A DNA stretch of 36,833 bases from Nitrospirota bacterium (GCA_021791055.1 JAJYXI010000076.1:1-36833); one strand, 5' to 3'; counted from the stretch's first letter, positions 2,318-30,553 are shown. Program-made: numbers and translations. The notes: generated by a model not told the origin, from the sequence alone.

Positions 2318-3906
2318 TTTCTTCTCTTTCCCCTTCCTGTCAGTTCAGGGATTCTTTTGTCATTAATAATTTTTACCAGGCTCCATCGGACCTCTTCCGG
2401 CAGGTTGCTAAATGATGGCATCGCAGTCCCTGGATAACCTTTTGTTATGACATCAAAGGCCCTCTTAGGCGATAAGCTGTAAACGGTAAAGTCCGGAGGC
2501 TGGGGCTGAAAACCTTTTGAAAGCGCTGAACCTCTGCCATCCATTCCATGACACACGGAGCAGGTTTCATTATAAATTTTCTGGGCCTGTTGCAATGCTG
2601 TATCAGAGATTTTAACAGGAAGAGGTTCAGGTAAACTTAGAACATGATATTTTTTATCCAGATAATCGATCAAGCTGTCTATTTTATACCTATCAAAAAA
2701 AGTAAAGTAAGGCATGGCAGAGCCCGAAACGCCTTCGACTAGTATCTTATGAAGATGCGTTCTTGTGGTTCTTATAGCCGATATGTCTTCCGGAGGGATT
2801 GTAAGGTTTTTTGCTTCTGGTCCGATACCATCCGCCTTTTCTCCGTGACAGAAGGCACAGCTCTTTGAATATATGGTCTCGCCATTGTCATAGACCACTT
2901 TTAAATCGTCTTTATATTTATTAAGGGCTTCCTGGGAATAGGGCTGCAATTCTTTTTGGTAAGCTTGAGCGTTTGCCTGTAATTGTTTTTCAAGGGGCAG
3001 AAACTTCTTATACTGAATAAATTGTCTTGCTAAAAGCATTGGTATAAGTATGAGCATTAAGAGAGGTAGTACTGTTCTGATATCTAAAGTGCTCTTTTTA
3101 CCCACATTGAGATAAATTATCCACAATAATAATGCGACACCGACGACGCCAATAAATAATGAAGCATTGGTGATGTAATCAGGTTTTTCTAATAAAGAAC
3201 TGTAGAGCGTTGTGCCGAGGATGATCTGAAGCAATATCCCGGCAATGATCCATTTAAGCAGTGACCTCTTTTCGGTTTCATCTTTTGCTGAGAAGAAATA
3301 ATGAAATGCTGCACCGAATACAACCGCAGCCCCGAGGACATGCAGGTATCTGAAAAGCCAGTGTAAGGCTAAGGAACCCCTTAGCTTATAGCCACCACTG
3401 ATTATTGTTAACCACTTTTCCGGATTTTCTGCCACCACCAGAATCCCGACGAATACTGCAGGAACTGCAAGGAGAAGGAGGAGGGCAATGATGCCAAAAG
3501 CCAGATGTAAATAAGGGTGCACATACATTTTGTACCCCAGGGCATCAAAGGACAAAAATGCCACTACCAGAAATACAATGACTAACATCCATAAAGGCGC
3601 AAGTAGATTAACCCCGGTAAAGAAGGGGACGGTAAAGCCGATCTGGATCAGAAGCAATGGTGCAACTCCCAGCACTACTGCCAGGCTCTTGTGGGCCATG
3701 AAGGTCTTTAAGATCCTCTTATCCATACGCAACTCTTCCGGTTTACCGGTCCATCGGGCATCAATAAAACAGTAAACAGAAAGGATGGCAGTCCCTAAAG
3801 TTAAGAGAACAAATACCATATGAAGGGTGAAGGAGGCAAAAAGGAGACCACGGAGCCACGCATCCGGAAGCGGTTTTGAGAGCATTATGTCGAAGAGGCT
3901 ATTCAT
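2314..3906 (-). CDS. bd-oxidase-like membrane protein with two C-terminal cytochrome c domains
   Basis: This 530-residue protein has about eight hydrophobic segments (residues ~15-310), then a linker and two mono-heme cytochrome c domains. Heme motifs are CAFCH (350-354) and CSVCH (449-453), each followed by a Met-containing loop (SAMPYF, TAMPSF) that probably supplies the distal ligand. The membrane part looks like the distant bd-like partner subunits known from Nitrospirota, fused to cytochrome c. ATG 3906 is chosen over an in-frame GTG at 3912 because GGAGG sits five bases before it and it makes a four-base ATGA overlap with the preceding gene. It probably forms a complex with that preceding CydA-like protein and passes electrons between periplasmic c hemes and the membrane. 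Whether it reduces oxygen or quinone cannot be told. Confidence 0.78.
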   Translation of the reverse strand: MNSLFDIMLSKPLPDAWLRGLLFASFTLHMVFVLLTLGTAILSVYCFIDARWTGKPEELRMDKRILKTFMAHKSLAVVLGVAPLLLIQIGFTVPFFTGVNLLAPLWMLVIVFLVVAFLSFDALGYKMYVHPYLHLAFGIIALLLLLAVPAVFVGILVVAENPEKWLTIISGGYKLRGSLALHWLFRYLHVLGAAVVFGAAFHYFFSAKDETEKRSLLKWIIAGILLQIILGTTLYSSLLEKPDYITNASLFIGVVGVALLLWIIYLNVGKKSTLDIRTVLPLLMLILIPMLLARQFIQYKKFLPLEKQLQANAQAYQKELQPYSQEALNKYKDDLKVVYDNGETIYSKSCAFCHGEKADGIGPEAKNLTIPPEDISAIRTTRTHLHKILVEGVSGSAMPYFTFFDRYKIDSLIDYLDKKYHVLSLPEPLPVKISDTALQQAQKIYNETCSVCHGMDGRGSALSKGFQPQPPDFTVYSLSPKRAFDVITKGYPGTAMPSFSNLPEEVRWSLVKIINDKRIPELTGRGKRRK

Positions 3907-5258
3907 TCCCACCTCCCTGGTGTAAAACGGGAAGGTGCACCCATTTTGAGCCTTCCCGTTGATAGCTTATAGAGAAAGCTTGCCATTACCCTCCGCTCCT
4001 GCTCTGTCCCTGAAAAAGGAGGCATGAAGGGAACCATATCATGGGTATGGCCGAGGATGACAAAGATTCCATCCTCTGTCCTTCCCTGCACCCTCTTTGC
4101 AATGTCATTAATTCCTCCGATGGTGTGGCATGCTGAACAGTTCTGTGCAAAAAGGTATGCGCCCTGACTTATGGTATCAGAGCTATTGGCAGCCATGTTA
4201 TACCAGTAGCTGTTTTTGAGTGAACCGTCCCTTTCTAAAAAGGGGCCTTCTTTCAGTAATACCTGATTAGCATACATGTAACCTGGCATGAGGTAAGGAC
4301 CTCTGATGAACTCCCTTATACGTTCAAATTCACTTACAAAACCCATGGATATCAAAATTGCAGGGAGAATGAGAATTTTAACCAGAAGGGTGGAACCTCT
4401 CATGGCAGACAGGGCTAACACGAACAACAGGAAAGCAGCGGTAATATTCGCAATCCAGAAAACTTCCGGTTGCTGGGAAAAGTGGGAGGTCAGGGCAGCA
4501 AATTTAGCGTGGGTTTTGAACGATGAAGGGACGACGCTGAAATACCACCATGTGAATATAACCGTTGCCGATAATGAAAGCAGGGCAACCTTCCCGAAAA
4601 AGTTCAGGGCTTCTTTGCGGAAGCCACTTTCCCTTCTGGTAAAAAGAAGAAATGCCACAGAGAATACGGTACCAAGCGCTAAAGCAATACCTATCCTCAA
4701 TAGCAGTTGAGGCAGGTAACTTGGATTAAAAAAAGCAGATAAGATACTTTTATCCCAGGGCCAGCCATCAGAAGTAAGCATAAAACCCAGTATACCTGTA
4801 ATCAGGAAGGCAGAGGAAAGGGCGAAAAGGGTATAGCCAGCTCCCAGATAAATATGCTGCTTCTTCCTCTCACCTGTCCATTTATCCCAGGTAAAGTAGT
4901 AGAGGAGAATAAAAATCACCTCACCGGTGAATACCATCCATTCAATAAACCATGGCCAGAAAAAGACACGAAGCATAGAGCCTATGCCAAGTGGTGCAAG
5001 GGCGCTGGTAATAAGCCATATGCCGGCGCCCGTTACCGCTCCGACACCTGTGGTGATTATAATGGTGAATTTTAGAAATTCCTTTGCAAAATTTTCCCAG
5101 TCCTGGGAAGACTTCTTAAATCCCAGGTATTCACTTATTACGATGAGCGTTATTGCGCCGATAGCCAGTCCGTGGCTTATGATCACATGCAGCACTGCAT
5201 CCAGTGCGATTGTCATGCCGTTGCCTAAATGCGGTACCTGAAAGATGGGAAACTGCAT
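3903..5258 (-). CDS. CydA-like membrane protein with C-terminal cytochrome c domain
   Basis: The 451-residue protein has about eight transmembrane segments. The first (around residues 17-45, with His24 and His29) resembles the heme-b-binding N-terminus of cytochrome bd subunit I. The C-terminus is a mono-heme cytochrome c domain with CSACH at 374-378 and Met-rich FMPPF downstream. The GRQPW-type Q-loop of true quinol oxidases is not seen, so classical quinol oxidation is unlikely. Comparable c-heme-fused bd-like proteins are known in Nitrospirota and are proposed, not proven, as terminal oxidases or quinone-linked electron carriers. The gene lies 8 nt after the thiosulfate dehydrogenase gene and overlaps the next cytochrome gene by four bases, so the three should be made together. 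Confidence 0.78.
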   Translation of the reverse strand: MQFPIFQVPHLGNGMTIALDAVLHVIISHGLAIGAITLIVISEYLGFKKSSQDWENFAKEFLKFTIIITTGVGAVTGAGIWLITSALAPLGIGSMLRVFFWPWFIEWMVFTGEVIFILLYYFTWDKWTGERKKQHIYLGAGYTLFALSSAFLITGILGFMLTSDGWPWDKSILSAFFNPSYLPQLLLRIGIALALGTVFSVAFLLFTRRESGFRKEALNFFGKVALLSLSATVIFTWWYFSVVPSSFKTHAKFAALTSHFSQQPEVFWIANITAAFLLFVLALSAMRGSTLLVKILILPAILISMGFVSEFERIREFIRGPYLMPGYMYANQVLLKEGPFLERDGSLKNSYWYNMAANSSDTISQGAYLFAQNCSACHTIGGINDIAKRVQGRTEDGIFVILGHTHDMVPFMPPFSGTEQERRVMASFLYKLSTGRLKMGAPSRFTPGRWE

Positions 5259-5266
5259 AAATCCTC

Positions 5267-6118
5267 CTATCCCTTTCTGGGCACAAAATGAGGTCTTGGC
5301 TGGGTTGTAACAAACGCTGCTACATCCAGGGCATCTTCAGGGGTAAGGTCAGGATTTCCCTTTGGCATATTTTTATAGGCAAAGGCTGCAAGGTTTTCCA
5401 GCTTATGCATACCCGCGCCATCATTGAATGAATCCTTACCCCATAGAGGTGGTGCAGCCTGGGTTCCCTGTCCGTCATTACCGTGACACATAGCGCACTT
5501 TTGAGCAAAAATTTGTTTCCCTTTCACTGGGTCAGGGGGATGGGCACTTTTGATATGCTTTAGCCCCACCCATGGAATATCTGCATATATAGGTAATCCT
5601 TTAGATATCCATTGATAATAGGTGACAAGGGCTGTCATTTCCTTACTGTCAGGAGGCAAAGGCTTCCCGTTCATGCTCCTTTCAAAACAGTCATTGATCC
5701 TTGTAATGATGTGAACTGCATAATTTTGTCTCTTCCTATATTTCGGATATGTTGACGCCACACCTACTAGTGAGATACCTCCGTTTTTCCCGCCTTCGGT
5801 AATTCCGCCCTTAAAATGACAGTTTGTGCAGTTGAGTTTGTTGCCGACATATTTTGCTGCATATTTCCGGGTATCCATCATAATATTGTATCCGAGCATG
5901 ACTGCGTCTTTTATGTCAGCCGGCGCATCCTGTGGCAAAGGTGGGTTAAAGGTGACAACCCCTGCTACGGGTTTTGACGGGACCTTCTGTACAGGTATCT
6001 CAATACCCTTGACTTCACCAAAGCTAATAAATCTGCTGAAGATAAGAGAAACGACTGCCCCGACAATGGCGAATGTAACGGTGATAACCAGGGCAAATGT
6101 TAATTTATTCCTTTCCAT
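5267..6118 (-). CDS. tsdA: TsdA-type diheme thiosulfate dehydrogenase
   Basis: This is a 283-residue protein with an N-terminal hydrophobic segment (8-32) acting as signal or anchor. Heme 1 motif is CTNCH (97-101) and heme 2 motif is CAMCH (208-212). Between them lies RINDCFERSMNG (140-151). In TsdA this region carries the unusual Cys axial ligand of the catalytic heme; here that is Cys144. KNMPKG (249-254) is the likely Met region of heme 2. TsdA couples two thiosulfates to tetrathionate, or the reverse, in the periplasm and gives electrons to c-type carriers. Placement first in an operon with two cytochrome-c-fused bd-like proteins suggests these receive its electrons. The start has GGAGG seven bases upstream. 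Some TsdA proteins act mainly as tetrathionate reductases, so direction is not decided. Confidence 0.88.
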   Translation of the reverse strand: MERNKLTFALVITVTFAIVGAVVSLIFSRFISFGEVKGIEIPVQKVPSKPVAGVVTFNPPLPQDAPADIKDAVMLGYNIMMDTRKYAAKYVGNKLNCTNCHFKGGITEGGKNGGISLVGVASTYPKYRKRQNYAVHIITRINDCFERSMNGKPLPPDSKEMTALVTYYQWISKGLPIYADIPWVGLKHIKSAHPPDPVKGKQIFAQKCAMCHGNDGQGTQAAPPLWGKDSFNDGAGMHKLENLAAFAYKNMPKGNPDLTPEDALDVAAFVTTQPRPHFVPRKG

Positions 6119-9265: not shown

Positions 9266-9682
9266 TTAAATGCTGTGCAGTAAATAAATTACAAGAAATA
9301 TTCCGATTGCAAGGACAGAGATGGTGAGCAGTATGTCGAGTATTAAAGAGGGCTGGTATGCATCTTTATCTATCTGCTTCTCAACTTTCTTATACCTGAT
9401 GAATGAAAGCACTCCCATTAAGGCGCCGAGACCCACAAGAAATATGCCGAAGATTGATGAATAGCCGTGAGAAGGGGGAAGGACATGGGTTTCCGGTAAT
9501 CCTGATTTCCCCAGAAAATACGATATTTGTCTTACGAATAGTGCAAACTTCTCCACAACAAAACCAAAGGCCATTATCCCTATGCTCGTTCTTATCCATG
9601 CAAGGAATGTCCTCTCATTCGCCATGTGCACACGGCGATTGCGGACCTTTGAAGACTTTTTATCTTCTGTCATCTCCGGCAT
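9266..9682 (-). CDS. DUF202 (YidH-like) membrane protein
   Basis: The 138-residue protein has the DUF202 signature HMANERTFLAWIRTS (19-33) leading into a first hydrophobic segment, followed by two more (about 77-95 and 114-136). DUF202 proteins are small inner-membrane proteins of unknown function. The ERTFLAW-IRTSIGI heptads match the unit expanded many times in the proteins at 24625-27457. The start at 9682 has little Shine-Dalgarno support; ATG 9673 (M4) behind CCGGAG is a possible alternative. It sits 10 nt after tatA and 5 nt before glgP, so the three genes look cotranscribed. Confidence 0.85.
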   Translation of the reverse strand: MPEMTEDKKSSKVRNRRVHMANERTFLAWIRTSIGIMAFGFVVEKFALFVRQISYFLGKSGLPETHVLPPSHGYSSIFGIFLVGLGALMGVLSFIRYKKVEKQIDKDAYQPSLILDILLTISVLAIGIFLVIYLLHSI

Positions 9683-18553: not shown

Positions 18554-20209
18554 TCACTCCATTACTCCATTCATCTTCGATGGCAACCATATTTTAAATG
18601 CAGCCCCCTTCCCTTTTTCGCTTTCCACAGAAATTTCACCACGATGCTCTTTAATTATGCCGTAACTGACGGCAAGGCCAAGGCCTGTGCCATGTCCCGG
18701 ATCCTTTGTGGTAAAGAAGGGATCAAATATCCTGTTCCTGATGCTTTCAGGAATGCCGCACCCTGTATCGGAGAATACGATCAGGATTCCATTTTTCGCA
18801 TCGTCATAATGTGTCGATATATTAATAACACCGCCGGATTTGATGGCATCACGGGCATTCGCGAGAAGGTTCATAAAGACCTGCTTCATTTTATCCACAT
18901 CCGCTTTTATTCCGGGTATGGCAGGGTCGTAATTCCTCACAATCTCTATGCCGTTTTCCTTGAACCGGGCCTCCATGGATGAGGCAACGGATTCGATAAT
19001 CCCGTTGATGTCTGCATCCACAGGTTGTATCTTTGTCTGTCTTGCAAAGTTGAGGAGGTCTTCAACAATCTTCTTGCAAAGCTGCGCATTGTTGTGGATC
19101 ATCGAGAGGTCTTCCTTTATATGCTCATTTGCAGGACAGTCCTCGGTCAACATCCCTGCATATCCAAGTATTATGCTCAGGGGATTGTTAATCTCATGGG
19201 CAACGCCTGCTGCCAGTTGTCCGATTGATGCGAGCTTCTCCGCCTGTCTTAATTTTGCCTCCGATGTCCTTAGATCATCCTGTGATTTTTTAAGATGCGA
19301 TACCATTTGATTAAAGGACTCCGCAACCTCGGATATTTCATCCTGACCTTTAACATCGAACCTTACATCCAACCCCTTCTGGCCGCTCACAATGGATTTA
19401 AAAAATGAGCTCACCCTCTTTAACGGCCTCACTGCAACTGCATAGTAAAAATAATTGAGAATAAGAAAGAGGGCTACCGTACCCGTCAAACCTAAAAGAA
19501 ACACGGAAAAGGCAACCCTGCGTATCTGATAGAATGTGTCATCCACAGGGATTGCAATGGACTCCAGCCCGATTACATCCCCCACTTTCCAGTAGTGGCC
19601 ATGCTCCCTGCCGTATCGCTGAATAAGGGAGCCGGGTGAATAGGAAGGGTCTCCATGACACATTATGCACTGTTCTTCCATGACAACCGCCTTTAGATGC
19701 ACAAAAAATCTCCTGCCGCCCTTTGTGGTTAATCCCTTCCATTCATGGCCCTTCCACCCATTCCGGTCTCGTAACCCCCCTTGCCCCTCCTTAGTAAGAG
19801 GGGGATAAGGGGGGGTATCGGAGAATCTCCTTATAAAATCAGCTTCAAAATCATCGGCCTTATTTTTGGGATTCATGGGGTTTATGGCAACCCTTCTGTA
19901 GATGTAGTCGGGAAATCTCTTATCAAACCTCTTCATAATTCCCTTATTCACAAAGGATGTGGACATTGCCTCGCGGATGAAGCTATCCTTTGGCAATGCA
20001 TGGAACAACTGCGGCCTTAACTCATCACGGACATATTCCATTGTAGCGTCGATATGTCCCAATACGAGGTCGGTCTTTTCGTATGCCTCTTTTATGTAGA
20101 GATCTTTCATATATTCATAGAAAACAACAGAAGCCACTCCGGCAGCACACAACAAAATTATTCCTATTCCAAGCATGAATTTTGTAGTGAGTTTAAGACT
20201 CTTCTTCAC
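18554..20209 (-). CDS. Sensor histidine kinase with c-type-heme (Tll0287/DUF3365-like) sensor domain
   Basis: The 551-residue kinase has two transmembrane segments (11-31 and ~233-256) bounding a periplasmic domain that carries the heme motif CIMCH (181-185) in the context EEQCIMCHGDPSYSPG, as in DUF3365/Tll0287-like heme sensors. HAMP (~257-310), HisKA with VAHEINNPLSII (His339) and HATPase_c (DTGCGIP, GTGLGLAVSYGI) follow. The heme suggests sensing of redox state or a diatomic gas. The start is GTG; no ATG is available before residue 12. It lies 5 nt after the PEP-synthase-like gene. Residues ~133-147 (PPYPPLTKEGQGGL) are encoded by an inserted dispersed repeat inside the sensor domain. Confidence 0.92.
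   Translation of the reverse strand: MKKSLKLTTKFMLGIGIILLCAAGVASVVFYEYMKDLYIKEAYEKTDLVLGHIDATMEYVRDELRPQLFHALPKDSFIREAMSTSFVNKGIMKRFDKRFPDYIYRRVAINPMNPKNKADDFEADFIRRFSDTPPYPPLTKEGQGGLRDRNGWKGHEWKGLTTKGGRRFFVHLKAVVMEEQCIMCHGDPSYSPGSLIQRYGREHGHYWKVGDVIGLESIAIPVDDTFYQIRRVAFSVFLLGLTGTVALFLILNYFYYAVAVRPLKRVSSFFKSIVSGQKGLDVRFDVKGQDEISEVAESFNQMVSHLKKSQDDLRTSEAKLRQAEKLASIGQLAAGVAHEINNPLSIILGYAGMLTEDCPANEHIKEDLSMIHNNAQLCKKIVEDLLNFARQTKIQPVDADINGIIESVASSMEARFKENGIEIVRNYDPAIPGIKADVDKMKQVFMNLLANARDAIKSGGVINISTHYDDAKNGILIVFSDTGCGIPESIRNRIFDPFFTTKDPGHGTGLGLAVSYGIIKEHRGEISVESEKGKGAAFKIWLPSKMNGVME
19773..19818. repeat. Dispersed G/C-run palindromic repeat, inserted in frame in the heme kinase
   Basis: A run of C's, CCTCCTTAGTAAGAGGGGG and a run of G's form a partly palindromic element of about 46 bp. 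It is translated as PPYPPLTKEGQGGL without breaking the frame. Related copies are at 21459-21503 and 22225-22302. Confidence 0.75.
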
Positions 20210-20214
20210 GGCGG

Positions 20215-22854
20215 TTAAAGTCCATAATTTTCTTTCAGGAAGTTTCTACTATACCGTTCAACAGCGCCATCGTCATGAAGCACTGCATCGAGCTGTCTTG
20301 TATATGCAATCAGCCTGCCCAGTTGGTCGAGGATATTCTCCATCTCGTCCTGCCTTATATTGGCAAGCCTTGCAATGATGAGATCTCCCTTTGTTTTTAT
20401 ATTGAAGCCGTATCCCTTTAAGATGTTTGTGATGAGTTCCACCCTCCTCGAGCGTTTTACAATGTCCGTTGCTCCTCCCGCAAAACGGAAATGTATGTGA
20501 TTGTTCCTCGCATTTTCACTGCAATAACAGTCTATGACATTGAAATGATACCCGAATCTGAGGCTCAGGTTCATGTATTCCTTCGATGCAACAGCCACAT
20601 TGTTTTCAATATAGCTAAGACCGTCAGAGGTTATATCGGACATCCTCATCATGCTCGTGAGAAAGTCCTTTGCCTTTAATGATACCATATCTGAATGCCA
20701 TACACCCGGATAAAGCATTCCTTTGATTATCGCTTTTAAGGGTATGGATGCAATATCTTCAAATGCGGCGCTCCTCTGCCCCGGCTTTATATTCAAACCT
20801 CCGCCTATATCTATTACCGTAATACCTGCGGGTATCTTTAAATCCAGCTTAACATGAGCATGTTCTTTTGACACAGCCCTGCTGATGCCTATAAGCTCAG
20901 AGACTGATTTCTCGTGGATGAATCTGAGGATGTCATGGATGGTTTTGCATCCCTCCGGTGTAAAATTATCTTCCAATGGGTCAATGAGGTTGAGGGGCGC
21001 GATGTATCTGAGGATATATCTTTTCCTGCGAAATTCATAGACATCTTCCATTCTTCTAAAATTTGAATCGGCATGCATAAGGAGTGTTTTGACTGTCCCT
21101 TCAAATACCGCTGCACCCCCATCATCTGCATTCACTGTAATCTCCTGCCCGTGTTTAAGAGCCTGTGTTGCATTGCCTGCATTAACAATAGTGGGAATCC
21201 TGAATTCCCTGCAAAGGGAAGCCATATGGCTTGTGGGCGTTCCGGTATCGGTTATGATTGCAGACACATAGGGCATCACACGAACAAAATTTGATGAGTC
21301 ATGTTTTGCCACAAGCACAGAGCCTTTTGGAATTCTGTCCAGCTCATCCATATGCCTTAAAATGAAGACCCTGCCTGCACCTACGCCTTTCTGGACAACA
21401 AGGCCTCTATCTTTCATTAAAATGGTTGCATTAGAGAATTCCCTTGCCTCCCTTTCACACCCCCCATCTCCCCCCTTACCAAGGGGGGAATTAAAGGGGG
21501 GTAGCGGCCTTGCCTGAAGTATGAATATCCTTCCGTCTTTATCAATCGCCCATTCAATATCCTGGGGTTTTCTGAAGTGCTTCTCTATCTGAATTGCCCG
21601 GCTCGCAAGCTCAAGCACCTGCTCAGAGGTCAAACATGGTCTTCCCATCATACTGTCCGGGGTTTTAATCTTATTAACTCCACCGTCTCTCAGATTAATA
21701 ATCATGGACTCTTTTCTGCCATGTCTATTTTCAATTATTTCGGGATTTATGTCCTTTTTCACAACATAGAAATCAGCATCTATCTGTCCTTCAACTATGG
21801 ATTTCCCCAGTCCCCATGTGGAATTTATTATCATGGTGTTGCCGTCACCATTCGGGTTTGTGGAATAGATAACACCGCTGGATGCCGAATCAACCATTGC
21901 CATGCATCCCACGGCCATCTTCGATCTGCCCGGTTCATACCCCATCTGCCTTTGATATGCAATTGCCCTGTCTGAAAACAGACTTGCGATAACCCTTTTA
22001 TACGCATCCTTTACAGCCCTTCCCTTCAGAGGCACATTCAATACGGTCTCAAACTGGCCTGCAAAAGAATGTTCGCTGTCCTCTTCTGTTGCACTGCTCC
22101 TTACTGCACACGCAAGTCCACCTTTAAACTTTTCCTTAAGCCTTTCGATTGCATCGTCAATGGCAGCACTTAGTTCAGAAGGGATCTCACCATTGATAAT
22201 CAAATCATGAAGTTCATTGGGCATAACCCCCCTCAGCCCCCCCTTACCAAGGGGGGAATTAAAGAGGGTCTCCCCCTTACCAAGAGGGGATATAGGGGGG
22301 TTGCCGAGGGATTCGATCTTTTCATTAAGTCCGTTATGTTTTATAAATTCATCAAAGGCACGGGTTGTTATGGCAAATCCTTCGGGGACATTGAGTTTCA
22401 GATAGTTTTTTACTTCGGCTAAATTGGAGTTTTTCCCTCCCACATCACGGGGCATATCCCATGTGATATTGTCGTAAAAGATAACCAGCCCTGTGGATGC
22501 CGGGACATCATATATAATCCTTTTGATCTGATTATCAATGCGTTCAAATACATCATGGAGCTTTATATATTTATTTTTCGTGAGAACATCGAAGTTTTGC
22601 ATGGAACTATATACAGCGCCGGAGAGTTCAGAATAAGCCTTTTTTATGTAGTTGATGTCGAAGAGGTAGTCTCCTCCAAGCTTGTCACCCATATCCGCAA
22701 TAACCTCGATAGCCCTGTTGTGGTCATCGAGAACCTGCCTGAAACGGGTGAAGAGCGTCTTGAAAGACAGATAATCAATCTCCCCGGCGAAACCCCTTGT
22801 TTGTCTCTTTAGAAATCCGAAAATAGACCTTAAATGTCCAAAAATATCTTTCAT
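20215..22854 (-). CDS. PEP-synthase/PPDK-like phosphotransferase with unrecognised C-terminal domain
   Basis: This 879-residue protein has a helical N-terminal extension (1-125), a PPDK_N ATP-binding domain (~128-450; GGKNSNLAEV, VRSSATEEDSEHSFAGQFET, DIEWAIDKDGRIFILQARPLPP) and a swivelling phosphohistidine domain (~500-590; TDTGTPTSHMASLCREF with His543). The C-terminal ~290 residues (KRYILRYIAPLNLIDPLEDN onward) do not show the TIM-barrel motifs of PEP synthase or PPDK, so the acceptor may not be pyruvate. It lies between a lone receiver (1-nt overlap) and a heme kinase. Two in-frame repeat insertions lengthen it at ~185-209 and ~453-466. It may pass phosphate from ATP to an unknown small molecule or protein; named only as PPDK-like. 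Confidence 0.82.
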   Translation of the reverse strand: MKDIFGHLRSIFGFLKRQTRGFAGEIDYLSFKTLFTRFRQVLDDHNRAIEVIADMGDKLGGDYLFDINYIKKAYSELSGAVYSSMQNFDVLTKNKYIKLHDVFERIDNQIKRIIYDVPASTGLVIFYDNITWDMPRDVGGKNSNLAEVKNYLKLNVPEGFAITTRAFDEFIKHNGLNEKIESLGNPPISPLGKGETLFNSPLGKGGLRGVMPNELHDLIINGEIPSELSAAIDDAIERLKEKFKGGLACAVRSSATEEDSEHSFAGQFETVLNVPLKGRAVKDAYKRVIASLFSDRAIAYQRQMGYEPGRSKMAVGCMAMVDSASSGVIYSTNPNGDGNTMIINSTWGLGKSIVEGQIDADFYVVKKDINPEIIENRHGRKESMIINLRDGGVNKIKTPDSMMGRPCLTSEQVLELASRAIQIEKHFRKPQDIEWAIDKDGRIFILQARPLPPFNSPLGKGGDGGCEREAREFSNATILMKDRGLVVQKGVGAGRVFILRHMDELDRIPKGSVLVAKHDSSNFVRVMPYVSAIITDTGTPTSHMASLCREFRIPTIVNAGNATQALKHGQEITVNADDGGAAVFEGTVKTLLMHADSNFRRMEDVYEFRRKRYILRYIAPLNLIDPLEDNFTPEGCKTIHDILRFIHEKSVSELIGISRAVSKEHAHVKLDLKIPAGITVIDIGGGLNIKPGQRSAAFEDIASIPLKAIIKGMLYPGVWHSDMVSLKAKDFLTSMMRMSDITSDGLSYIENNVAVASKEYMNLSLRFGYHFNVIDCYCSENARNNHIHFRFAGGATDIVKRSRRVELITNILKGYGFNIKTKGDLIIARLANIRQDEMENILDQLGRLIAYTRQLDAVLHDDGAVERYSRNFLKENYGL
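21459..21503. repeat. Dispersed G/C-run repeat, second copy, in the PPDK-like gene
   Basis: CCCCCCTTACCAAGGGGGG with flanking C- and G-runs. It is read in frame as NSPLGKGGDGG near residue 455, between the ATP-grasp and phosphohistidine domains. Confidence 0.75.
22225..22302. repeat. Dispersed G/C-run repeat, two adjacent copies, in the PPDK-like gene
   Basis: Two copies back to back (CCCCCCCTTACCAAGGGGGG and CCCCCTTACCAAGAGGGG) are translated as PPISPLGKGETLFNSPLGKG, near residues 186-205, inside the ATP-binding domain. The reading frame is kept. Confidence 0.75.
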
Positions 22855-23219
22855 TATTTGCTTAGTGCACGCTGGATGGATGCCTTTAATTCCTTTATCT
22901 TCACAGGCTTCGGGAAAAAGTCATGCACATCTCCCCTTAACGCCTCGATGGCGGTGTCGAGATTCGCAAATGCAGTAATCATGATAACCTTTGTCTCAGG
23001 ATATAACTTCTTCACCGTTCTCAGAACCTCCATGCCATCGATTCCCTTCATCTTGTAATCGGTAACAACCACATCGAACTTTTCCTCCTTTAATCTTGAC
23101 AGTGCAGGCTCGGCATTTAAAAATGTCTCCACAGCATATCCCTCCTGCTCAAGGGACATCTTGGCCATGTCCCCAACAATCTTTTCATCGTCAACAACCA
23201 TAATCCTGTATTTGCTCAT
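22854..23219 (-). CDS. Stand-alone receiver-domain response regulator
   Basis: The 121-residue protein consists of one receiver domain: VVDDEK (8-13), phospho-acceptor Asp54 in VVTDYKMKG, MITAFA (Thr/Ser switch) and the Lys of FPKPVK. No output domain follows. It starts one base after the upstream kinase stop region and its TAA overlaps the PPDK-like ATG by one base, so it sits in a kinase-receiver-phosphotransferase cassette. It may act by protein contact, possibly on the PPDK-like enzyme, or be an intermediate in a phosphorelay. Confidence 0.93.
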   Translation of the reverse strand: MSKYRIMVVDDEKIVGDMAKMSLEQEGYAVETFLNAEPALSRLKEEKFDVVVTDYKMKGIDGMEVLRTVKKLYPETKVIMITAFANLDTAIEALRGDVHDFFPKPVKIKELKASIQRALSK

Positions 23220-24619
23220 TACTTTTCCTCCTTATAAACTGGCAGTTCTATTGTAAAGGTGGTGCCAACCCCTACCTTGCTTTCAACCCTGATATCCCCT
23301 TTGTGCTTTTTAATTATGCCGTAACTAACCGACAGTCCGAGCCCTGTTCCACCCACACCTTTTGTGCTGAAAAACGGATCAAATATGTGCGGCAAAAACT
23401 CAGGCGGTATGCCTTTACCGGTGTCCATAACAGTCACCTCTACAAAGCCGCTGCTGCTTCCATCCCTCGATGAAATAAAAAGCACACCTCCTCCTGACAT
23501 TGCCTGTACTGCATTGGTGATAAGGTTTACAAGCACCTGCTGTATCTGGTGCTCATCGATAAACAGAGGAGGAAGACCATCTTTGAGGTTTAACCTTGTT
23601 TCAATATTGGATATGTCGATCATGTTCTGTACGAGATTAAGGGTCTTACTTATGATCTCATTAATATTGGTCTTTTTAAGATTTGCCTCCTTCGGTTTTG
23701 AAAAGTCCAACAGGTTCCTGACGATCTCTTTTATTCTCTCTGTCTCTCCCTCCACCTTATTCATAAACTCGATCCTCTCTTCCCTGTTCAATTTGTCGTA
23801 GAGCTCCGTATATGTCTGTGCAATCATGGAGATATTATTAAGGGGATTTGTCAATTCATGGGCCACACCCGCCGTAAGAACACCGAGGGATGCAAGTTTC
23901 TTGGACTGGATAATCTGTTCTTCCCGATTTCTGAGTTCTTCGGACATGAAGTTAATGGCCTTGATGACAGCCCCTAATTCATCATTCAATATTATTCCCT
24001 CTATCTTCCTGAAGTTTCCTTCCGATATGGACATGGCAAGGTTCTCTATCTCCCTCAAAGACCTCAATATCTTCTGGGAAATAAAATGGCTCACAACAAT
24101 AGCTGACAGGAATATAGCCCAGAAAGAATAGAAGAGTATCCTCTTTGAGTTTGAAATAATATCGTTTACACCCGTCCTCTCAAGATGCGTTATATTTTCT
24201 GAAAATTCCTTCAGTTTTTTGCCTTCTGTCCTGAGCTTTGCTTCCATCTGCAAATTCCGGTTAGCGCTCTTCCTCATCTCCTCGACAACATCCGAGTAGC
24301 TTTTCAGATGCAGATTTAGCAGCTCAAAATTCTTCTCGCCAACAGCACGAACCACATCATTTTTCACAAGCCCTATCGATTCCACGGTCTTGTCTATTTT
24401 TTCCCTTATATCAAAAAGCGCTGCTTCATCCTTATACAAAAAGAAGTTCTTTTCCGACAGCCTCATCTCAAGAAAGGATGCATTCAGGTCGTCCGCTATC
24501 TCCACAAATCTCAGCTTCGTGAGCATCAGATTCAGGTTCTGGAATGCAAAGAGTCCTATCAGTACAATCAAGGCTACATTAAAGACATTGGAAAGTATAA
24601 TCTTATGTTCTATTTTCAT
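23219..24619 (-). CDS. Membrane sensor histidine kinase with four-helix-bundle-like sensor
   Basis: The 466-residue kinase has a transmembrane helix (7-27), a long helical periplasmic region (28-160, 4HB-type by its heptad-like charge pattern), a second helix (~161-180), HAMP (~182-235), HisKA with AHELTNPLNNIS (His254) and HATPase_c (MDTGKGIPPEF, GTGLGLSVSYGI). It is adjacent to the lone receiver with a one-base junction, so that is its probable partner. It follows the DUF202-repeat gene by 5 nt. Confidence 0.93.
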   Translation of the reverse strand: MKIEHKIILSNVFNVALIVLIGLFAFQNLNLMLTKLRFVEIADDLNASFLEMRLSEKNFFLYKDEAALFDIREKIDKTVESIGLVKNDVVRAVGEKNFELLNLHLKSYSDVVEEMRKSANRNLQMEAKLRTEGKKLKEFSENITHLERTGVNDIISNSKRILFYSFWAIFLSAIVVSHFISQKILRSLREIENLAMSISEGNFRKIEGIILNDELGAVIKAINFMSEELRNREEQIIQSKKLASLGVLTAGVAHELTNPLNNISMIAQTYTELYDKLNREERIEFMNKVEGETERIKEIVRNLLDFSKPKEANLKKTNINEIISKTLNLVQNMIDISNIETRLNLKDGLPPLFIDEHQIQQVLVNLITNAVQAMSGGGVLFISSRDGSSSGFVEVTVMDTGKGIPPEFLPHIFDPFFSTKGVGGTGLGLSVSYGIIKKHKGDIRVESKVGVGTTFTIELPVYKEEK

Positions 24620-24624
24620 ATTTA

Positions 24625-25830
24625 TTATTCAGGCACAGGACATCTGGGGATTTCCGATTGCTCCTTTCTTACAGGCATGTACCACAATATGCCGTCCGTA
24701 ATCATCAATATCCCTGCAATAACAAGCATGGAATCGAATACCGTTAATAAACTGAAACCGAAATAGTGCATAAGGCCGAAGCCGACGCTGGAAAAGGAAA
24801 CACCCGTTCTTATAAATGCAAGGCCTGTCCTCGCGCGGGCATAGATGGTGCGATAGCACGCAGCCACGGTGCGCTGTCCCGCAAGCACATTCCTCTCTCT
24901 GGCAAGGTGGGTTCGCTCCCTGCTGGAAGGGGAGGGATAAAGGATTGTGCAGTGGTCGGCTAAAAAATCGCCGAGACGGGCAAGCATTGTCCCTTTTGTG
25001 GAAATTTCCGCGCCTGTGTTTTCAATAAAATGGTAATTCTCGAGAAAATGCACGGTTGCAGAGGTCACCTCCACAAGTGTATGGTGCTCCGGCGGTCTCA
25101 TCCTCGATTTTCTTATTTTAAGATAGTTGGACAATCCGAATATGACAAAGAAAAAGCCTGCAGCCATCATAATCCAGTAGAAATAAAACATAGAACCAAA
25201 TTTATGGGTGCGCATAAGGGTGTCGGATATTGCTATAAATCCAAGCCCCCACCTGAGAAATGCAAGGCCTGTCCTTCCCTTTGCAAGGTCATTCCTGTAG
25301 CAAGCGAGTCTTGTCCTCCAGTGGGCCATTGTATTGCGCCAGAATGCAAGGCCTGTCCTCTCGGTTCCTATCAGATGTCCTGGTTTTGCGTGTAAAAAAT
25401 CCTGAATGAACCACTGGATATCCTCGGCCAGTGCCACCCAGAATTCGTATCTTTCAGCCTTGATATATTTCCTGACCTCATCTAAAACTGTGCGGTCTTC
25501 AGGATTATTGGCAGCTATGACAACAGTGTCGCCATCTCTAATTATGGGAAACCACTGGCTCATGGAAAGCCTTTCTCCGTCAAGACCCGAGAGCAGTTCA
25601 GGCGGGATGGGCATCTTTTCGTCGTATTCCACGAAGGGACAGTTATAATACCCGGAAAGCGCCTGAAGCAAAATGCGCCGCGGCACTCCGAATTCCCTTA
25701 TCAGCGCCCTCTCAAGTTCGATGCCCCTTGCAATGGCAGTAGTCTCCGCTGCACGGAGCTGCTGTTCGGTTAAAACTCCCCAGTCCAGCAATATAAGGAA
25801 TCTTTCTGTTGCCGTATCAAAGGTCATCAT
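24625..25830 (-). CDS. MshEN-like protein with two DUF202-like heptad/membrane modules
   Basis: This is a 401-residue protein from ATG 25830; the open frame reaches 25887, but that would overlap the previous gene by 71 bases. N-terminal ~150 residues resemble the GspE/PilB N-terminal (MshEN) domain: LDWGVLTEQQLRAAE, LIREFGVPRRILLQALSGYY, CPFVEYDE. Two modules follow (about 156-238 and 302-388), each made of four to six heptads of the form x-R-T/N-x-L/M-A-x (TERTGLAF, RERNVLAG, ARTGLAF, IRTGVSF) running into two hydrophobic helices and ending near WYMP. This is the DUF202 signature multiplied. Function unknown. It probably forms a membrane complex with the longer paralogue encoded just upstream, whose 3' end it overlaps by 14 nt. 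Confidence 0.8.
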   Translation of the reverse strand: MMTFDTATERFLILLDWGVLTEQQLRAAETTAIARGIELERALIREFGVPRRILLQALSGYYNCPFVEYDEKMPIPPELLSGLDGERLSMSQWFPIIRDGDTVVIAANNPEDRTVLDEVRKYIKAERYEFWVALAEDIQWFIQDFLHAKPGHLIGTERTGLAFWRNTMAHWRTRLACYRNDLAKGRTGLAFLRWGLGFIAISDTLMRTHKFGSMFYFYWIMMAAGFFFVIFGLSNYLKIRKSRMRPPEHHTLVEVTSATVHFLENYHFIENTGAEISTKGTMLARLGDFLADHCTILYPSPSSRERTHLARERNVLAGQRTVAACYRTIYARARTGLAFIRTGVSFSSVGFGLMHYFGFSLLTVFDSMLVIAGILMITDGILWYMPVRKEQSEIPRCPVPE

Positions 25831-27457
25831 GACTGAATATCGCCTTTCTCCAATAACGGGCAGGCTTCCCGTAATCAGGCACAACAATCTCCATCTCTCC
25901 GAAACAGTACGGGAATTGCCTCTTTATCCTTTCAGCAGGGATATTCCAGTAAAGCCCGTCGGCAATGAACATCAGGCCGAACACTATCATCAAAACATCG
26001 AATATTGTCCATGCCTTATTGCCTGTCCCGAAATAAACCAGAAGTCCTATGCCAACAGCAGATATGGCCATACCTGTTCTTATGAATGCCATTCCCGTCC
26101 TCGACCTTGCCATCACAGTGCGGAGCCTCGCCATCACATTCCTTCTGTCGGCAAGCACTGTCCTTTCGAGGGCAAGTCCTGTGGTTGCCCATATGCCCGG
26201 AGAGTGGGATGCCCTGACAGGAGGAACACATACATACTCTGCATTTATCTGTTTAAGGGAGGGAGGGAAAACAAAATCCCATATACTCCTGTTATCCTCC
26301 GACCTCTGCACCGACTCAAAGCCTTCTATTCCGGCGCTGCGCCCCGGAAGATACCAGTAGAAACCTTCCATTGCCATCAAAATGCCTACCAGTATAAGAG
26401 TAAAATCGAATGCAGTCCACGGTCCGATATGGAATTGCCTCAGCAGCGCAATGCCGAGACCGATAAAGGCAATACCTGTGCGCGTGAAGGCAAGCCCTGT
26501 GCGCGCCCGCGCCATGGCTGTTCTATAGCATGCAAGGACCGTTCTTTCTTCAGCCATATCAGTCCTGTCGCCGGCAAGAAACCTCCGTCTCATCACCGGA
26601 GACAGGTTGTTCCAGCCGGAGCGCAGTTTATCCGCTCCTTCTACTGGATCGGTGCGGGTGAAACACGGGTTATCTCCGGGGTCGGAAACCTTAAGAACCG
26701 TGCTTCCCCATGTCGGCTCCGTAGAGGTGCAGTCAAGCAGTTTCTTGCCAGTCCTACGAGCAGGGAGATACCACATAAGGCCGTCCATTGCCATCACGAT
26801 GCCGGCCATAAAAAGTAATGCTTCAAAAACGGTGAGATAGCCTATGCCGAAAATCCTTAAAAGCACTAAGGAAATGGCTATAAAAGATATCCCTGTGCGG
26901 AGAAAGGCAAGACCTGTCCTTCCCTTTGCAAGGGATGTCCTGTAACACGCCATTGTGGAGCGGCGGTCAGCAAGAAATGTCCTTACCTTTGCAAGGGGCG
27001 TCCTTCCTGCCGGTGAGGGAAAATGGGGATTCACATCAAAATTATGTTCGATAATCCTTATGAGGTCGGAAGGCAGGGCAACGATGAAATCTATTTCCTC
27101 AATTTTGAGGGTCTTTTTTATGTCTTCGACAACAGCATGGTCATAAGGATTGTATGCAATTACTTCAGCCCTATGCTGTCTGACAGAGAGTGGAAACCAG
27201 AGGGCATATTTAAGCCTCTCCATATTTAGCCGCATGGTAAGGAAATAAGAGGCCATAACACTCTCATCATACTCCACAAAGGGATAGCCGTAATATTCAG
27301 AAAGGCAGAATAATACCTCGTGTCTCGGGATGCCTTTTTCTATCAAGAGATCTTCGGGATATTTACCTGAAGTCTTTGATTCCTTTATGACTTCATCCAA
27401 TCCATCATGGGTTATAATCTCTCTTTTAGTTAATCGCTCAAATTTTTTATTCAACAT
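25817..27457 (-). CDS. MshEN-like protein with three DUF202-like heptad/membrane modules
   Basis: The 546-residue protein has an N-terminal MshEN-like domain (1-145; ITHDGLDEVIKESKTSGKYP, LLIEKGIPRHEVLFCLSEYY, YPFVEYDES) followed by three DUF202-like modules (about 151-235, 292-373, 425-511). Each module starts with four or five exact heptads such as ERTVLAD-RRNVMAR-LRTVMAR-SRTGMAF-IRTGMAI, then two hydrophobic helices with a G-I-L/V-M-A-M-x-G-x-x-W-Y turn and a WYLPxR end. Modules are joined by variable acidic or Pro-rich linkers. MshEN domains of secretion ATPases can bind c-di-GMP, but no ATPase domain is present here. Function unknown. It lies 34 nt after a universal stress protein gene. 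Confidence 0.82.
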   Translation of the reverse strand: MLNKKFERLTKREIITHDGLDEVIKESKTSGKYPEDLLIEKGIPRHEVLFCLSEYYGYPFVEYDESVMASYFLTMRLNMERLKYALWFPLSVRQHRAEVIAYNPYDHAVVEDIKKTLKIEEIDFIVALPSDLIRIIEHNFDVNPHFPSPAGRTPLAKVRTFLADRRSTMACYRTSLAKGRTGLAFLRTGISFIAISLVLLRIFGIGYLTVFEALLFMAGIVMAMDGLMWYLPARRTGKKLLDCTSTEPTWGSTVLKVSDPGDNPCFTRTDPVEGADKLRSGWNNLSPVMRRRFLAGDRTDMAEERTVLACYRTAMARARTGLAFTRTGIAFIGLGIALLRQFHIGPWTAFDFTLILVGILMAMEGFYWYLPGRSAGIEGFESVQRSEDNRSIWDFVFPPSLKQINAEYVCVPPVRASHSPGIWATTGLALERTVLADRRNVMARLRTVMARSRTGMAFIRTGMAISAVGIGLLVYFGTGNKAWTIFDVLMIVFGLMFIADGLYWNIPAERIKRQFPYCFGEMEIVVPDYGKPARYWRKAIFSHDDL

Positions 27458-27491: not shown

Positions 27492-27911
27492 TCAGTTGCT
27501 CACCACCAGTACAGGACAGGGCGCCTGATTGATGACCTTTTCCACGACATTATCGCCAAAAAACTTTCTGAGCCAGTTCCGCTTCTGTGCTCCCATTATG
27601 ATAAGGTCGCATCTCTCATCTTCCGCCACTTCTATAATCTTTTTATCGACCTCGCCTTCTTCAAGCCTCGTCTTTATCAGGGCCCCCTCGGTTCTTGCAA
27701 TAGCCTTCATCTCGGAAACAGCCTTAGTGCCTTCGCTGTCCAGCACGGCTTCAATATTCTTTATTCCCACGAGATTAAGGTCTCCCTCGTAGGGAGGAAT
27801 AACCTTCACAACCGTAACCCAGCATTTTTCATCACGGGCAAGCTGCAATCCTTCTGTAAGCACATCCTTTGAACCGTTCACTGCTATTAAAATCTTCCTA
27901 TATCCTTTCAT
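27492..27911 (-). CDS. Universal stress protein (UspA family), single domain
   Basis: The 139-residue Usp domain starts MKGYRKILIAVNGSKDV and ends with the typical APCPVLVVSN. The glycine-rich ATP motif (G-2x-G-9x-G-S/T) is degenerate (GAQKRNWLRKFFGDN), so it probably does not bind ATP in the standard way. Part of a run of three Usp genes in the same operon. Confidence 0.9.
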   Translation of the reverse strand: MKGYRKILIAVNGSKDVLTEGLQLARDEKCWVTVVKVIPPYEGDLNLVGIKNIEAVLDSEGTKAVSEMKAIARTEGALIKTRLEEGEVDKKIIEVAEDERCDLIIMGAQKRNWLRKFFGDNVVEKVINQAPCPVLVVSN

Positions 27912-27952
27912 CTTCTATCACCTCTCAATACTCCATTACTCCATTCCGTTGT

Positions 27953-28810
27953 TTACCTCACTGCCAGTATGGGACAAGGGGCATTCATTATTACCCTTTC
28001 AGTTGTGCTTCCCATAATCGCCTTACTAACCCCCTTCCATCCATAAGTCCCTATAACTATCAAATCGTTCTTCAATTTACCGGCGGTCTCTATAATCCTG
28101 TCTCCTGCGGCCCCTTCCTGAATTGCCGTAGATATTGACAGTCCACGGGACGAGGCAATCTTATTCGCCTCGGCGGTAATCCTTTGTACCTCCTGCATAA
28201 GGCTCTTTTTTATGGACTCTGTTTTGAAAAACTCCACCATCTCTTCATAACGCGGAATTACATACAGAACAGTTATCTCTGCATTATCCATTCTTGACAG
28301 CTCGCAGGCGTGCTCAAGGGCCTTTTTGCTGAATTCGGAACCGTCAAAGGGAACAAGTATTGATTTGTACTGCCCTGTGCATTCACTGCATGGTTTCTTT
28401 ACCACAAGAACATCACACGGTGAATTGACAATCACCTTCGATGTCACACTCCCCATGACCAGTCTTTTCAGTCCCTTTCTGCCGTAAGTTCCCATTGCGA
28501 TGAGGTCAGCCTTCTTCCCCGCCGCAATATCAGTTATCACATCGGGCGGTTCACCCTCGCATATAAGGGACTCCACTTCTATTCCGAATTCGGATGAAAT
28601 TGTCTCCCTCGCCTGATAGCAAACCTTTTTACCGAGTTCAAAGCGTTTCTCCCTCTGCTCCGGCGCAAGGCTGAATTCCTCCTCGTCAAAGTAAACAGCA
28701 TGTACCATAATGACTTTACCACCATGCCTCTTTGCCAAGTTTGAGGACTCTATGAGCGCTGCCCTGCTGAATTCCGAGCCGTCAAATGCCACAAGTATTG
28801 TTTTATACAT
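27953..28810 (-). CDS. Tandem-domain universal stress protein
   Basis: This 285-residue protein contains two Usp domains (1-142 and 149-285). Both retain the ATP-binding motif: GTYGRKGLKRLVMGS and GTYGWKGVSKAIMGS. The linker holds CSEC (140s region). The start codon shares its last base with the stop of the TIGR02186 gene. Tandem Usp proteins are cytoplasmic nucleotide-binding stress proteins. Operon context with a sulfite exporter and redox kinases suggests a redox or energy-stress role. Confidence 0.93.
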   Translation of the reverse strand: MYKTILVAFDGSEFSRAALIESSNLAKRHGGKVIMVHAVYFDEEEFSLAPEQREKRFELGKKVCYQARETISSEFGIEVESLICEGEPPDVITDIAAGKKADLIAMGTYGRKGLKRLVMGSVTSKVIVNSPCDVLVVKKPCSECTGQYKSILVPFDGSEFSKKALEHACELSRMDNAEITVLYVIPRYEEMVEFFKTESIKKSLMQEVQRITAEANKIASSRGLSISTAIQEGAAGDRIIETAGKLKNDLIVIGTYGWKGVSKAIMGSTTERVIMNAPCPILAVR

Positions 28811-29619
28811 CAGTGTGCTCCTCCGCCTTTCCTGAATATCAAGCCCACTCCGAAACCTGCGCCCAGCGCCGCAACTATTGATATGATTCCGTATAAGGCA
28901 CCATTGTTTTTAGCCATATCGGCAAAAGTTTTCACGACACCGACCTGCTCAACAGTTATGCTGGATTGTGCGGTCTCCACAACCCTCCTGTCTTTCACCG
29001 CATATGCCGTAACAGTATATGTTCCGGGAGGAACCTGATACGGCCACTCGGTAAGGATATAATAATTCCCCTTTCCGTCCTTTTCTGTTAAGGATATCTT
29101 CCCTGTGGATGTGGAATATAACCTCGAATCCTCTTTAAACCTCACAAACTCGTTAAACCATTTTGTTTTTTCCTCTTCATTGGCAACAGGGCTCATCTGT
29201 ATGTGCTTTGCCAGTGCAGGATAGCCGATGACATACCTTTCCATATCTTCGGCGCTCAATATATCCTCTATTTTTTTAGTACTGTGGAGGAAGTAAATGC
29301 CCGGTACATGCTCTGCATTCAGAGAGCCCACATTCATCCACAGCAAACCCGCTATCTTTCCTTTCTGCTTCAGCACCTCATGCCCGTCAGGAGAGGTTAA
29401 TTTGATAATGAGGTCAACTCCGGGATCGGCTGTTCCCCTTACGCTCATCGTGCTGCCGTGATAAAAGAAGTCTATCTTTATATGGCTGTGATTTGCATCC
29501 ATAGTCAATTCGGCAAATGCCTCATCTTGCGGCATGAACAGTCCGAAAAATGCAAGGTTTAAGAAGTAGAAAAGGCTCAAGATTTTCGATCTTTTAGCTT
29601 TTAATTTTGAATTTCTCAT
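28810..29619 (-). CDS. TIGR02186/Alph_Pro_TM family membrane-anchored protein
   Basis: The 269-residue protein from ATG 29619 has AGGAGG upstream and starts one base after the TauE stop (the open frame extends to 29643). It has an N-terminal signal-like helix (ending near DEAFA), an extracytoplasmic beta-rich domain (NHSHIKIDFFYHGSTMSV ... PPGTYTVTAYAV) and a C-terminal transmembrane helix (~240-262) with GAGFGVGLIF. It matches the family commonly found next to TauE/SafE transporters. Role unknown, possibly a partner of the exporter. Confidence 0.82.
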   Translation of the reverse strand: MRNSKLKAKRSKILSLFYFLNLAFFGLFMPQDEAFAELTMDANHSHIKIDFFYHGSTMSVRGTADPGVDLIIKLTSPDGHEVLKQKGKIAGLLWMNVGSLNAEHVPGIYFLHSTKKIEDILSAEDMERYVIGYPALAKHIQMSPVANEEEKTKWFNEFVRFKEDSRLYSTSTGKISLTEKDGKGNYYILTEWPYQVPPGTYTVTAYAVKDRRVVETAQSSITVEQVGVVKTFADMAKNNGALYGIISIVAALGAGFGVGLIFRKGGGAH

Positions 29620-29620
29620 A

Positions 29621-30553
29621 TTAGTGTCCTCCTGCCTGTCCAAGCAGTAATGATGGGGTTAATGTGAGCTCAAAAATTATCTTCACGGTCACAACAAGCA
29701 CTATCACTGCAAGGATTATCTTGAGCTGCTCGCCCTTGAGCTTCCTTCCAAATACCGTTCCAACCTGGGCTCCGATAGTTGAACCTAAAAGCAGCAGCAC
29801 TGCAAGGATAAAGTCTACATTGTGATTGGTGTATGCCTGAAGGAAAGTGACCTCTATGCAGTTAAACAATATCTGAAAAAGGCTTGTACCCACAACAACA
29901 TGCATGGGCATTCTCAGAATGTACACCATCACAGGAACCATTAAGAAGCCTCCTCCCACGCCCATCACTGCCGCAAGGATTCCCACAAAGCCTCCGAAGA
30001 CGATGGGCACGAGCGCCGAATGGGTTACGCCTGATTTTTCATAATGGGTCTGAAGGGGCAGGGATTTGAGGAACTTTGTGACGGCTGATTCTTTAACGGG
30101 GGATTCCGTAAGGGAGACCTCGTTCCCCTTACGCGCTTTCTTCATGCTCTGTAAACTCTCTATAAACATGTATGTGCCCACTATACCGAGCATCAATACA
30201 TAGGTCATCTTTATCACAAAGTCCGCATTTCCCATTGCCCTTAGAATCTTTATTCCCTGAACTCCTATAAGTCCGCCGATGAAGCCTCCTATGAGGAGAT
30301 GGAAACCCATCTTGAAATCCACATTGCCCACCTTCCAGTGCGCATATGTACCGGAAGTGGATGCCGCCACTATCTGGTTTGAGTCTGTTGCTGCTGCAAC
30401 CGTTGAAGGTATGCCGAACATAATCAAGAGCGGCGTCATCAAGAAACCGCCTCCTACCCCGAAAAGCCCCGAAAGCAGGCCCACAGCCAGGCCAAGCCCC
30501 ACAGGGATTAAGATGTTAATACTCGTTAATGCTACCGGCAAATAAAGATACAT
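29621..30553 (-). CDS. TauE/SafE-family sulfite/sulfonate exporter
   Basis: The 310-residue polytopic protein has the duplicated TauE/SafE motif: GLLSGLFGVGGGFLMTPLL (about 23-41) and GILAAVMGVGGGFLMVPVM (about 185-203), with roughly eight to nine transmembrane segments and a charged central loop (~125-165). Family members move sulfite, sulfoacetate or related organosulfur anions. Given thiosulfate/sulfite oxidation genes nearby, sulfite removal is a reasonable guess. GGAGGAGAG precedes the ATG. It is followed with no gap by its usual TIGR02186 neighbour. Confidence 0.92.
   Translation of the reverse strand: MYLYLPVALTSINILIPVGLGLAVGLLSGLFGVGGGFLMTPLLIMFGIPSTVAAATDSNQIVAASTSGTYAHWKVGNVDFKMGFHLLIGGFIGGLIGVQGIKILRAMGNADFVIKMTYVLMLGIVGTYMFIESLQSMKKARKGNEVSLTESPVKESAVTKFLKSLPLQTHYEKSGVTHSALVPIVFGGFVGILAAVMGVGGGFLMVPVMVYILRMPMHVVVGTSLFQILFNCIEVTFLQAYTNHNVDFILAVLLLLGSTIGAQVGTVFGRKLKGEQLKIILAVIVLVVTVKIIFELTLTPSLLLGQAGGH

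Follow-up and report, generated by a model that had tools for sequence, protein, structure and literature searches.

We identified two adjacent genes, P1 and P2, between positions 24,625 and 27,457 of a 36,833-nucleotide stretch of DNA from a Nitrospirota bacterium (GCA_021791055.1, JAJYXI010000076.1:1-36833), which was analysed as a whole and is called the window here. Both encode an N-terminal MshEN domain followed by repeated DUF202 modules, in which a run of arginines at heptad spacing, the arginine ladder, leads into a transmembrane (TM) hairpin. The genes, their parts and a comparison gene from the same window are as follows:

25817..27457, (-): P1, 546 aa, a degenerate MshEN domain and three arginine-ladder DUF202 modules (ORF, Pfam, AlphaFold2)
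27035..27457, (-): P1 residues 1-141, domain of MshEN fold that lacks the c-di-GMP-binding motif (PF05157, VIA-align, NF053729)
26738..27007, (-): P1 module 1, residues 151-240, ladder R152-R187 (6 heptads) that leads into TM1 and is followed by TM2 (DUF202 profile, conservation, AlphaFold2 model)
26345..26599, (-): P1 module 2, residues 287-371, ladder R298-R326 (5 heptads) and TM hairpin (profile, conservation, model)
25934..26200, (-): P1 module 3, residues 420-508, ladder R432-R460 (5 heptads) and TM hairpin (profile, conservation, model)
24625..25830, (-): P2, 401 aa if read from the likely ATG start, a degenerate MshEN domain and two arginine-ladder DUF202 modules (ORF, Pfam, model)
25393..25815, (-): P2 residues 6-146, domain of MshEN fold that lacks the c-di-GMP-binding motif (PF05157, fold search, NF053729)
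25102..25362, (-): P2 module 4, residues 157-243, ladder R158-R193 (6 heptads) and TM hairpin (profile, conservation, model)
24652..24927, (-): P2 module 5, residues 302-393, ladder R306-R341 (6 heptads) and TM hairpin (profile, conservation, model)
9266..9682, (-): canonical single-copy DUF202 protein, the comparison gene (PF02656, 74.5 bits)

A sequence-only reading of the window had proposed two neighbouring proteins of this composition, and both open reading frames exist with both profiles above the curated Pfam cut-offs: MshEN (PF05157, cut-off 23.1) scored 32.1 bits in P1 and 46.5 bits in P2, and DUF202 (PF02656, cut-off 23.4) scored 62.1 and 33.1 bits. A profile search of the whole genome placed five DUF202 matches inside P1/P2, each above the cut-off on its own (25.1-28.1 bits), besides the canonical gene at 9266-9682. 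The proposed count of five modules with four to six heptads each is also borne out, the arginine runs being 6, 5 and 5 in P1 and 6 and 6 in P2, a total of 28 ladder arginines. The canonical protein is a DUF202 member as claimed, but it carries three heptads (Arg 17, 24 and 31) rather than two. A TTG start for P2, giving 420 aa, is probably an over-call. The preferred ATG at 25830 falls within the final codons of P1, giving a 14-nt overlap, and the longest ORFs of P1 and P2 overlap in 30 of the 30 loci that have P2; translational coupling of the two genes is therefore likely. No described system with this architecture was found in a search of an open-access literature library, in keeping with the earlier statement that none was known to that reader.

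The ladder is extremely well conserved in both proteins. A run of six arginines at a spacing of seven arose once per 20,000 shuffles of each protein, a figure in which the multiplicity of five runs is uncounted. Across 32 P1 and 29 P2 sequences the 28 ladder arginines are invariant, bar one tryptophan in one tandem P1 paralogue, while the non-ladder arginines of P1 and P2 are conserved at 69% and 60%. This sole substitution, W for R312, belongs to a locus in which P1 is tandemly duplicated (L011, 6244-7887 and 8001-9710). The 28 arginines of the window are encoded by four different codons, which argues that the pattern is maintained at the protein level. Mean entropy is lowest at heptad positions a (Arg, 0.01 bits), b (Thr, 0.25) and e (Ala, 0.33) and higher at positions d (Leu/Met, 0.64), g (0.65), and c and f (0.82). 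Positions a, b and e form one conserved helix stripe in which arginine lies beside leucine and alanine, and helix geometry thus suggests that the ladder arginines sit on the packing face of the helix. The idea of Arg/Thr faces within a helix bundle accords with this single stripe. The net charge of the five ladders is +8, +2, +6, +6 and +6, and that of P1 and P2 together is about +28.

AlphaFold2 models, made as monomers only from 29-32 sequences, had a pLDDT of 80.2 and a pTM of 0.69 for P1 and a pLDDT of 77.6 and a pTM of 0.53 for P2. Each module was modelled as a continuous helix of 49-57 residues that includes both the ladder and TM1 (152-203, 287-341 and 420-476 in P1), followed by a second long helix. 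The models thus have two long helices per module, and the PF02656 profile spans only 68 positions; canonical DUF202 and VTC proteins have a third TM helix. The head domains were modelled as an alpha/beta MshEN fold whose best structural match was c-di-GMP-bound MshE (5htl, Z 14.4 for P1 and 14.6 for P2). The whole-chain search was dominated by MshEN, and no VTC chain was among the listed matches; for the TM and ladder parts, the structure search returned no match above unrelated helical bundles. The ladder is presumably cytoplasmic, to judge from the MshEN head, from an even count of TM helices and from the fusion of a receiver domain in a relative described below.

The statement that DUF202 has no assigned function proved incomplete, since the TM1 stretch of yeast Vtc1, a helix of the polyphosphate channel, matches PF02656 at 45 bits. 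In the VTC complex the channel is formed by five TM1 helices and lined by K24 and R31 of Vtc1 together with the matching basic residues of Vtc3 and Vtc4, the heptad-spaced pairs being K24/R31, K622/R629 and K698/R705 (PMC9911596). In the DUF202 register, Vtc1 K24/R31 align with R17/R24 of the canonical protein and with R446/R453 of P1 module 3. The ladder therefore continues the series of VTC pore positions outward from the membrane for another two or three heptads. Vtc1 chains make up the four best PDB matches of the canonical protein, at E-values of 0.5-0.8 that are weak alone. DUF202 is present in E. coli, cyanobacteria, actinobacteria and archaea among the control genomes, and in fungi as Vtc1. 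The eukaryotic polyphosphate channel is the only role that we found for it; E. coli YidH was a hit in a screen for D-alanine exporters, but this was unconfirmed in a transport assay (PMC10299036).

The genes that flank P1 and P2 point to signal transduction:

23219..24619, (-): HK3, membrane histidine kinase (HAMP-HisKA-HATPase), the usual gene after P2 (Pfam)
22854..23219, (-): RR, stand-alone receiver-domain response regulator (Pfam)
20215..22854, (-): PPDK-like protein, ATP-grasp (PPDK_N) and phosphohistidine mobile domain (Pfam)
27492..28810, (-): two Usp genes upstream, a common but not universal part of the operon (Pfam)
28810..30553, (-): Alph_Pro_TM and TauE genes, a common but not universal part of the operon (Pfam)

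Pfam found no PEP-binding barrel in the PPDK-like protein. A 31-nt element, CCCCCCTTACCAAGGGGGGAATTAAAGGGGG, occurs three times within its gene (window 21470-21500, 22238-22268 and 22271-22301); the element adds peptides such as FNSPLGKGG and resembles a dispersed small repeat. Elsewhere in the window we observed a histidine kinase (18554-20209) whose sensor domain is Tll0287-like (PF11845) and which adjoins an NtrC-type regulator, and three adjacent c-type cytochromes, one with a SoxA/TsdA domain (2314-6118). A scan for promoters and terminators gave results at chance level.

We found 34 related loci in named genomes, mostly metagenome-assembled genomes (MAGs) of Nitrospirota with some Deltaproteobacteria/Desulfobacterota, Candidatus Electronema among them. 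At nearly all of these loci P2 comes after P1, and the full common operon reads o165-TauE-Alph_Pro_TM-Usp-Usp-P1-P2-HK-RR-PPDK. Of 29 testable loci, 23 have a kinase gene of the window type no more than 300 nt from P2. The Usp and TauE neighbours are common but not universal (TauE is upstream in 14 of 23 testable loci). After the kinase come RR in 20 loci and a PPDK-like gene in 17. An apparent P2-HK3 fusion in one locus (L029) is a frameshift artefact, as the sequence past the last ladder is out of frame. In Candidatus Electronema, genes for an LRR-Roc-COR (Roco-type) GTPase and a MEKHLA-domain protein lie between Alph_Pro_TM and P1 (L034, 5467-7892, (+)). Another locus (L032, 14-8004) has three PPDK-like genes, an RR and an HK in a row directly before P1, besides the HK-RR-PPDK set after P2.

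A module profile (A3) was used to count modules across genomes. Each of the 26 Nitrospirota genomes in the sample that have a complete pair shows five modules (3+2); in three of these there is an extra sixth match, which is a 114-aa fragment in one case and a short DUF202 protein in the other two. Eight genomes of the Desulfobacterota sample contain the pair; only four modules passed the threshold in one (G552), and the genes are split over contigs in another (G299). This phylum also has single-module relatives, in which 11, 12, 12, 12, 15, 17, 22, 29, 30 or 38 consecutive arginine heptads lead into one DUF202 hairpin; DUF202 was above the cut-off in all five of these relatives that were tested. 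Their arginine codons vary and the heptads within one protein are 46-62% identical in DNA, which argues that the long ladders are not recent copy artefacts. The longest, all R-T-x-L-A ladders from Desulfobacterota with one DUF202 hairpin and an adjacent HK, are:

L103 3287-4393, (+): 38 heptads
L060 3365-4306, (-): 30 heptads
L059 2394-3347, (-): 29 heptads
L058 3257-4069, (-): 22 heptads

In these four genomes the ladder gene directly precedes a homologue of HK3 (42-44% identity), and RR is the next gene after HK (56-65%) in three of the four loci. At the 30-heptad locus (L107), RR is found upstream (43%) with PPDK-like, Alph_Pro_TM and TauE genes. In a further relative (L053, 3726-4778, (+)), a 12-heptad ladder and DUF202 hairpin are fused to a C-terminal receiver domain and followed by PPDK-like and HK genes, which places the C-terminus in the cytoplasm. 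The suggestion that the locus has a signalling role is strengthened both by this fusion and by the conserved HK-RR linkage. A tblastn search of plasmids returned only ordinary response regulators for the receiver fusion and nothing for the hairpin. No genome in the Desulfobacterota sample has both the pair and a long ladder, and the two are probably alternative forms of one pathway component. A second ladder group (L054-L057, L061, L105) has no HK neighbour; at L055 1898-2704, L061 4171-4998 and L105 711-1541 a cytidylate-kinase-like gene (PF13189) is nearby, with a BON-domain match in two.

The best-supported role for P1 and P2 is that of a membrane partner of a two-component pathway. Our preferred reading, held tentatively and at somewhat less than an even chance, is that they act as translationally coupled subunits and together form a single five-module (3+2) membrane device that signals via the adjacent histidine kinase. 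By analogy with the five DUF202 TM1 helices of the VTC channel, the five ladder helices would pack side by side, and this likeness together with the module count suggests a pentamer. Rings of arginine would face the core of the bundle, and counter-anions or an anionic ligand would bind to them there. If the membrane or this ligand changed, the change might then travel through the rigid helices to the neighbouring kinase, which would phosphorylate the receiver protein and so control the PPDK-like phosphotransferase. In the relatives, one protein with a far longer ladder would take the place of P1/P2. Consistent with such a device are the identity and constant number of the modules, the invariant ladder in Vtc1 register, the P1-P2 overlap, the HK/RR/PPDK linkage of the pair, the same HK-RR genes beside long ladders and the receiver fusion. 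On the other hand, six of the 29 testable loci have no kinase of the window type in the 300 nt next to P2, which shows that the pair can do without an adjacent kinase, and the second ladder group likewise counts against the device.

The range of ladder lengths, from 5 to 38 heptads, might instead suggest a structural rod or tether, that is, a membrane-anchored basic coiled coil holding the nucleoid, RNA or an acidic partner at a set distance. The long ladders are basic over their whole length (+0.6 to +1.3 per heptad) and would reach up to about 400 A if helical. This explanation is unlikely, since the fixed arginine shares a face with leucine and alanine rather than lying on an outer binding face, and the receiver fusion and HK linkage indicate signalling. 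The same lengths limit the earlier proposal that the ladder binds anionic lipid: the innermost arginines could touch lipid, but lipid binding cannot explain the relatives with 22-38 heptads, which would span 230-400 A if helical.

A closer analogy with VTC would make P1/P2 a bacterial channel whose basic ladder conducts polyphosphate or some other polyanion, either through the membrane or up to it. The shared domain family, the heptad positions, the five DUF202 units and the overall basic charge make a VTC-like geometry plausible, and PPK1 is present in the Electronema relative (G296) and in G350. However, the window's genome, which is 99.75% complete, gave no match to PPK1, PPK2 or the VTC polymerase (PF09359, TIGR03705 and PF03976 were searched). 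PPK1 was found in none of the 26 Nitrospirota pair genomes, as against 58 other Nitrospirota that have it (Fisher p 0.004, of which phylogeny explains much), and is missing from 15 of 16 further Desulfobacterota ladder genomes. Polyphosphate transport is therefore unlikely, polyphosphate is not the general cargo and was mostly rejected as a candidate after these searches, and with signalling genes as neighbours we consider the channel itself improbable. An equally doubtful alternative is a small-anion channel or transporter, for instance for sulphur oxyanions, that works with TauE while the kinase senses transport. The frequent TauE gene upstream of the pair, and that near the long-ladder cassette of L107, would fit this, but several intact P1-P2 loci lack TauE and the pair matches no transporter family. 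The loci without TauE share no common extra partner among their flanking genes, which encode amino-acid biosynthesis proteins, a Mg-chelatase-like ATPase, an AMP-binding ligase, an MFS protein and others.

A further reading, to which we give only a slight chance, is that arginine-ladder DUF202 proteins form hollow pentameric tubes that extend 60-400 A from the membrane and have a lining of arginine rings stacked about every 10 A. Such tubes would retain or steer an anionic polymer or metabolite and signal the occupancy of this ligand to a histidine kinase. If true, these tubes would be a new class of membrane sensor, with a ruler length set by the number of heptads.

The MshEN heads had suggested that the device might be gated by nucleotide. 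NF053729, the NCBIfam model of the c-di-GMP motif (a 53-residue RLG...Q double motif, cut-off 38), scored 13.5 bits in P1 and 13.9 bits in P2, and at motif positions R9, G11, Q32, R38, G40 and Q61 (profile register) P2 has E, F, A, E, E and Y. The residues that contact c-di-GMP have been defined for MshEN, and XpsE, with similar changes to the motif, lost c-di-GMP binding (PMC5013675). Certain P2 orthologues fit this motif more closely (best E 4.6e-5), and c-di-GMP binding may thus have been an ancestral role. Although the fold is clearly that of c-di-GMP-bound MshE, gating by c-di-GMP is very improbable given the failed motif model, the replaced contact residues, the behaviour of XpsE and the complete loss of the first helices in several Desulfobacterota P1 proteins.

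The ladder family shows what evolution fixes in DUF202, namely one arginine per heptad in the register of the VTC pore. The signature motif of DUF202 is a repeat unit whose copy number can rise to 38, and the family ties it to a two-component pathway. The function of bacterial DUF202 can thus be approached by experiment through this family, and its graded rod lengths form a natural series for biophysical work.

Compared with known systems, P1/P2 share their N-terminal fold and Pfam profile with the MshEN/GSPII domains of MshE, PilB, PilF and XpsE, but have lost the c-di-GMP-binding residues and have no ATPase attached. With canonical bacterial DUF202 proteins (the E. coli YidH/YidG type, and window 9266-9682) they share the profile, and the signature motif of these proteins corresponds to one ladder unit; the canonical proteins, however, are single-module, about 100-140 aa long and have two or three ladder positions. 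The VTC complex (Vtc1/Vtc3/Vtc4) resembles P1/P2 in DUF202, in the heptad-spaced basic residues of TM1 and in having five units. Vtc3 and Vtc4 differ in bearing SPX and tunnel domains with one TM domain per subunit, whereas in P1/P2 the modules are fused 3+2, the ladders are longer, the heads are MshEN domains and the genome has no polyphosphate polymerase that we could find. Histidine kinases with separate membrane co-sensor subunits are also comparable. We know of no co-sensor with DUF202 ladders, and P1/P2 have short loops only, with no periplasmic sensing domain, but as in those systems a membrane gene lies beside the HK and RR genes, and in one relative the ladder protein is itself fused to a receiver.
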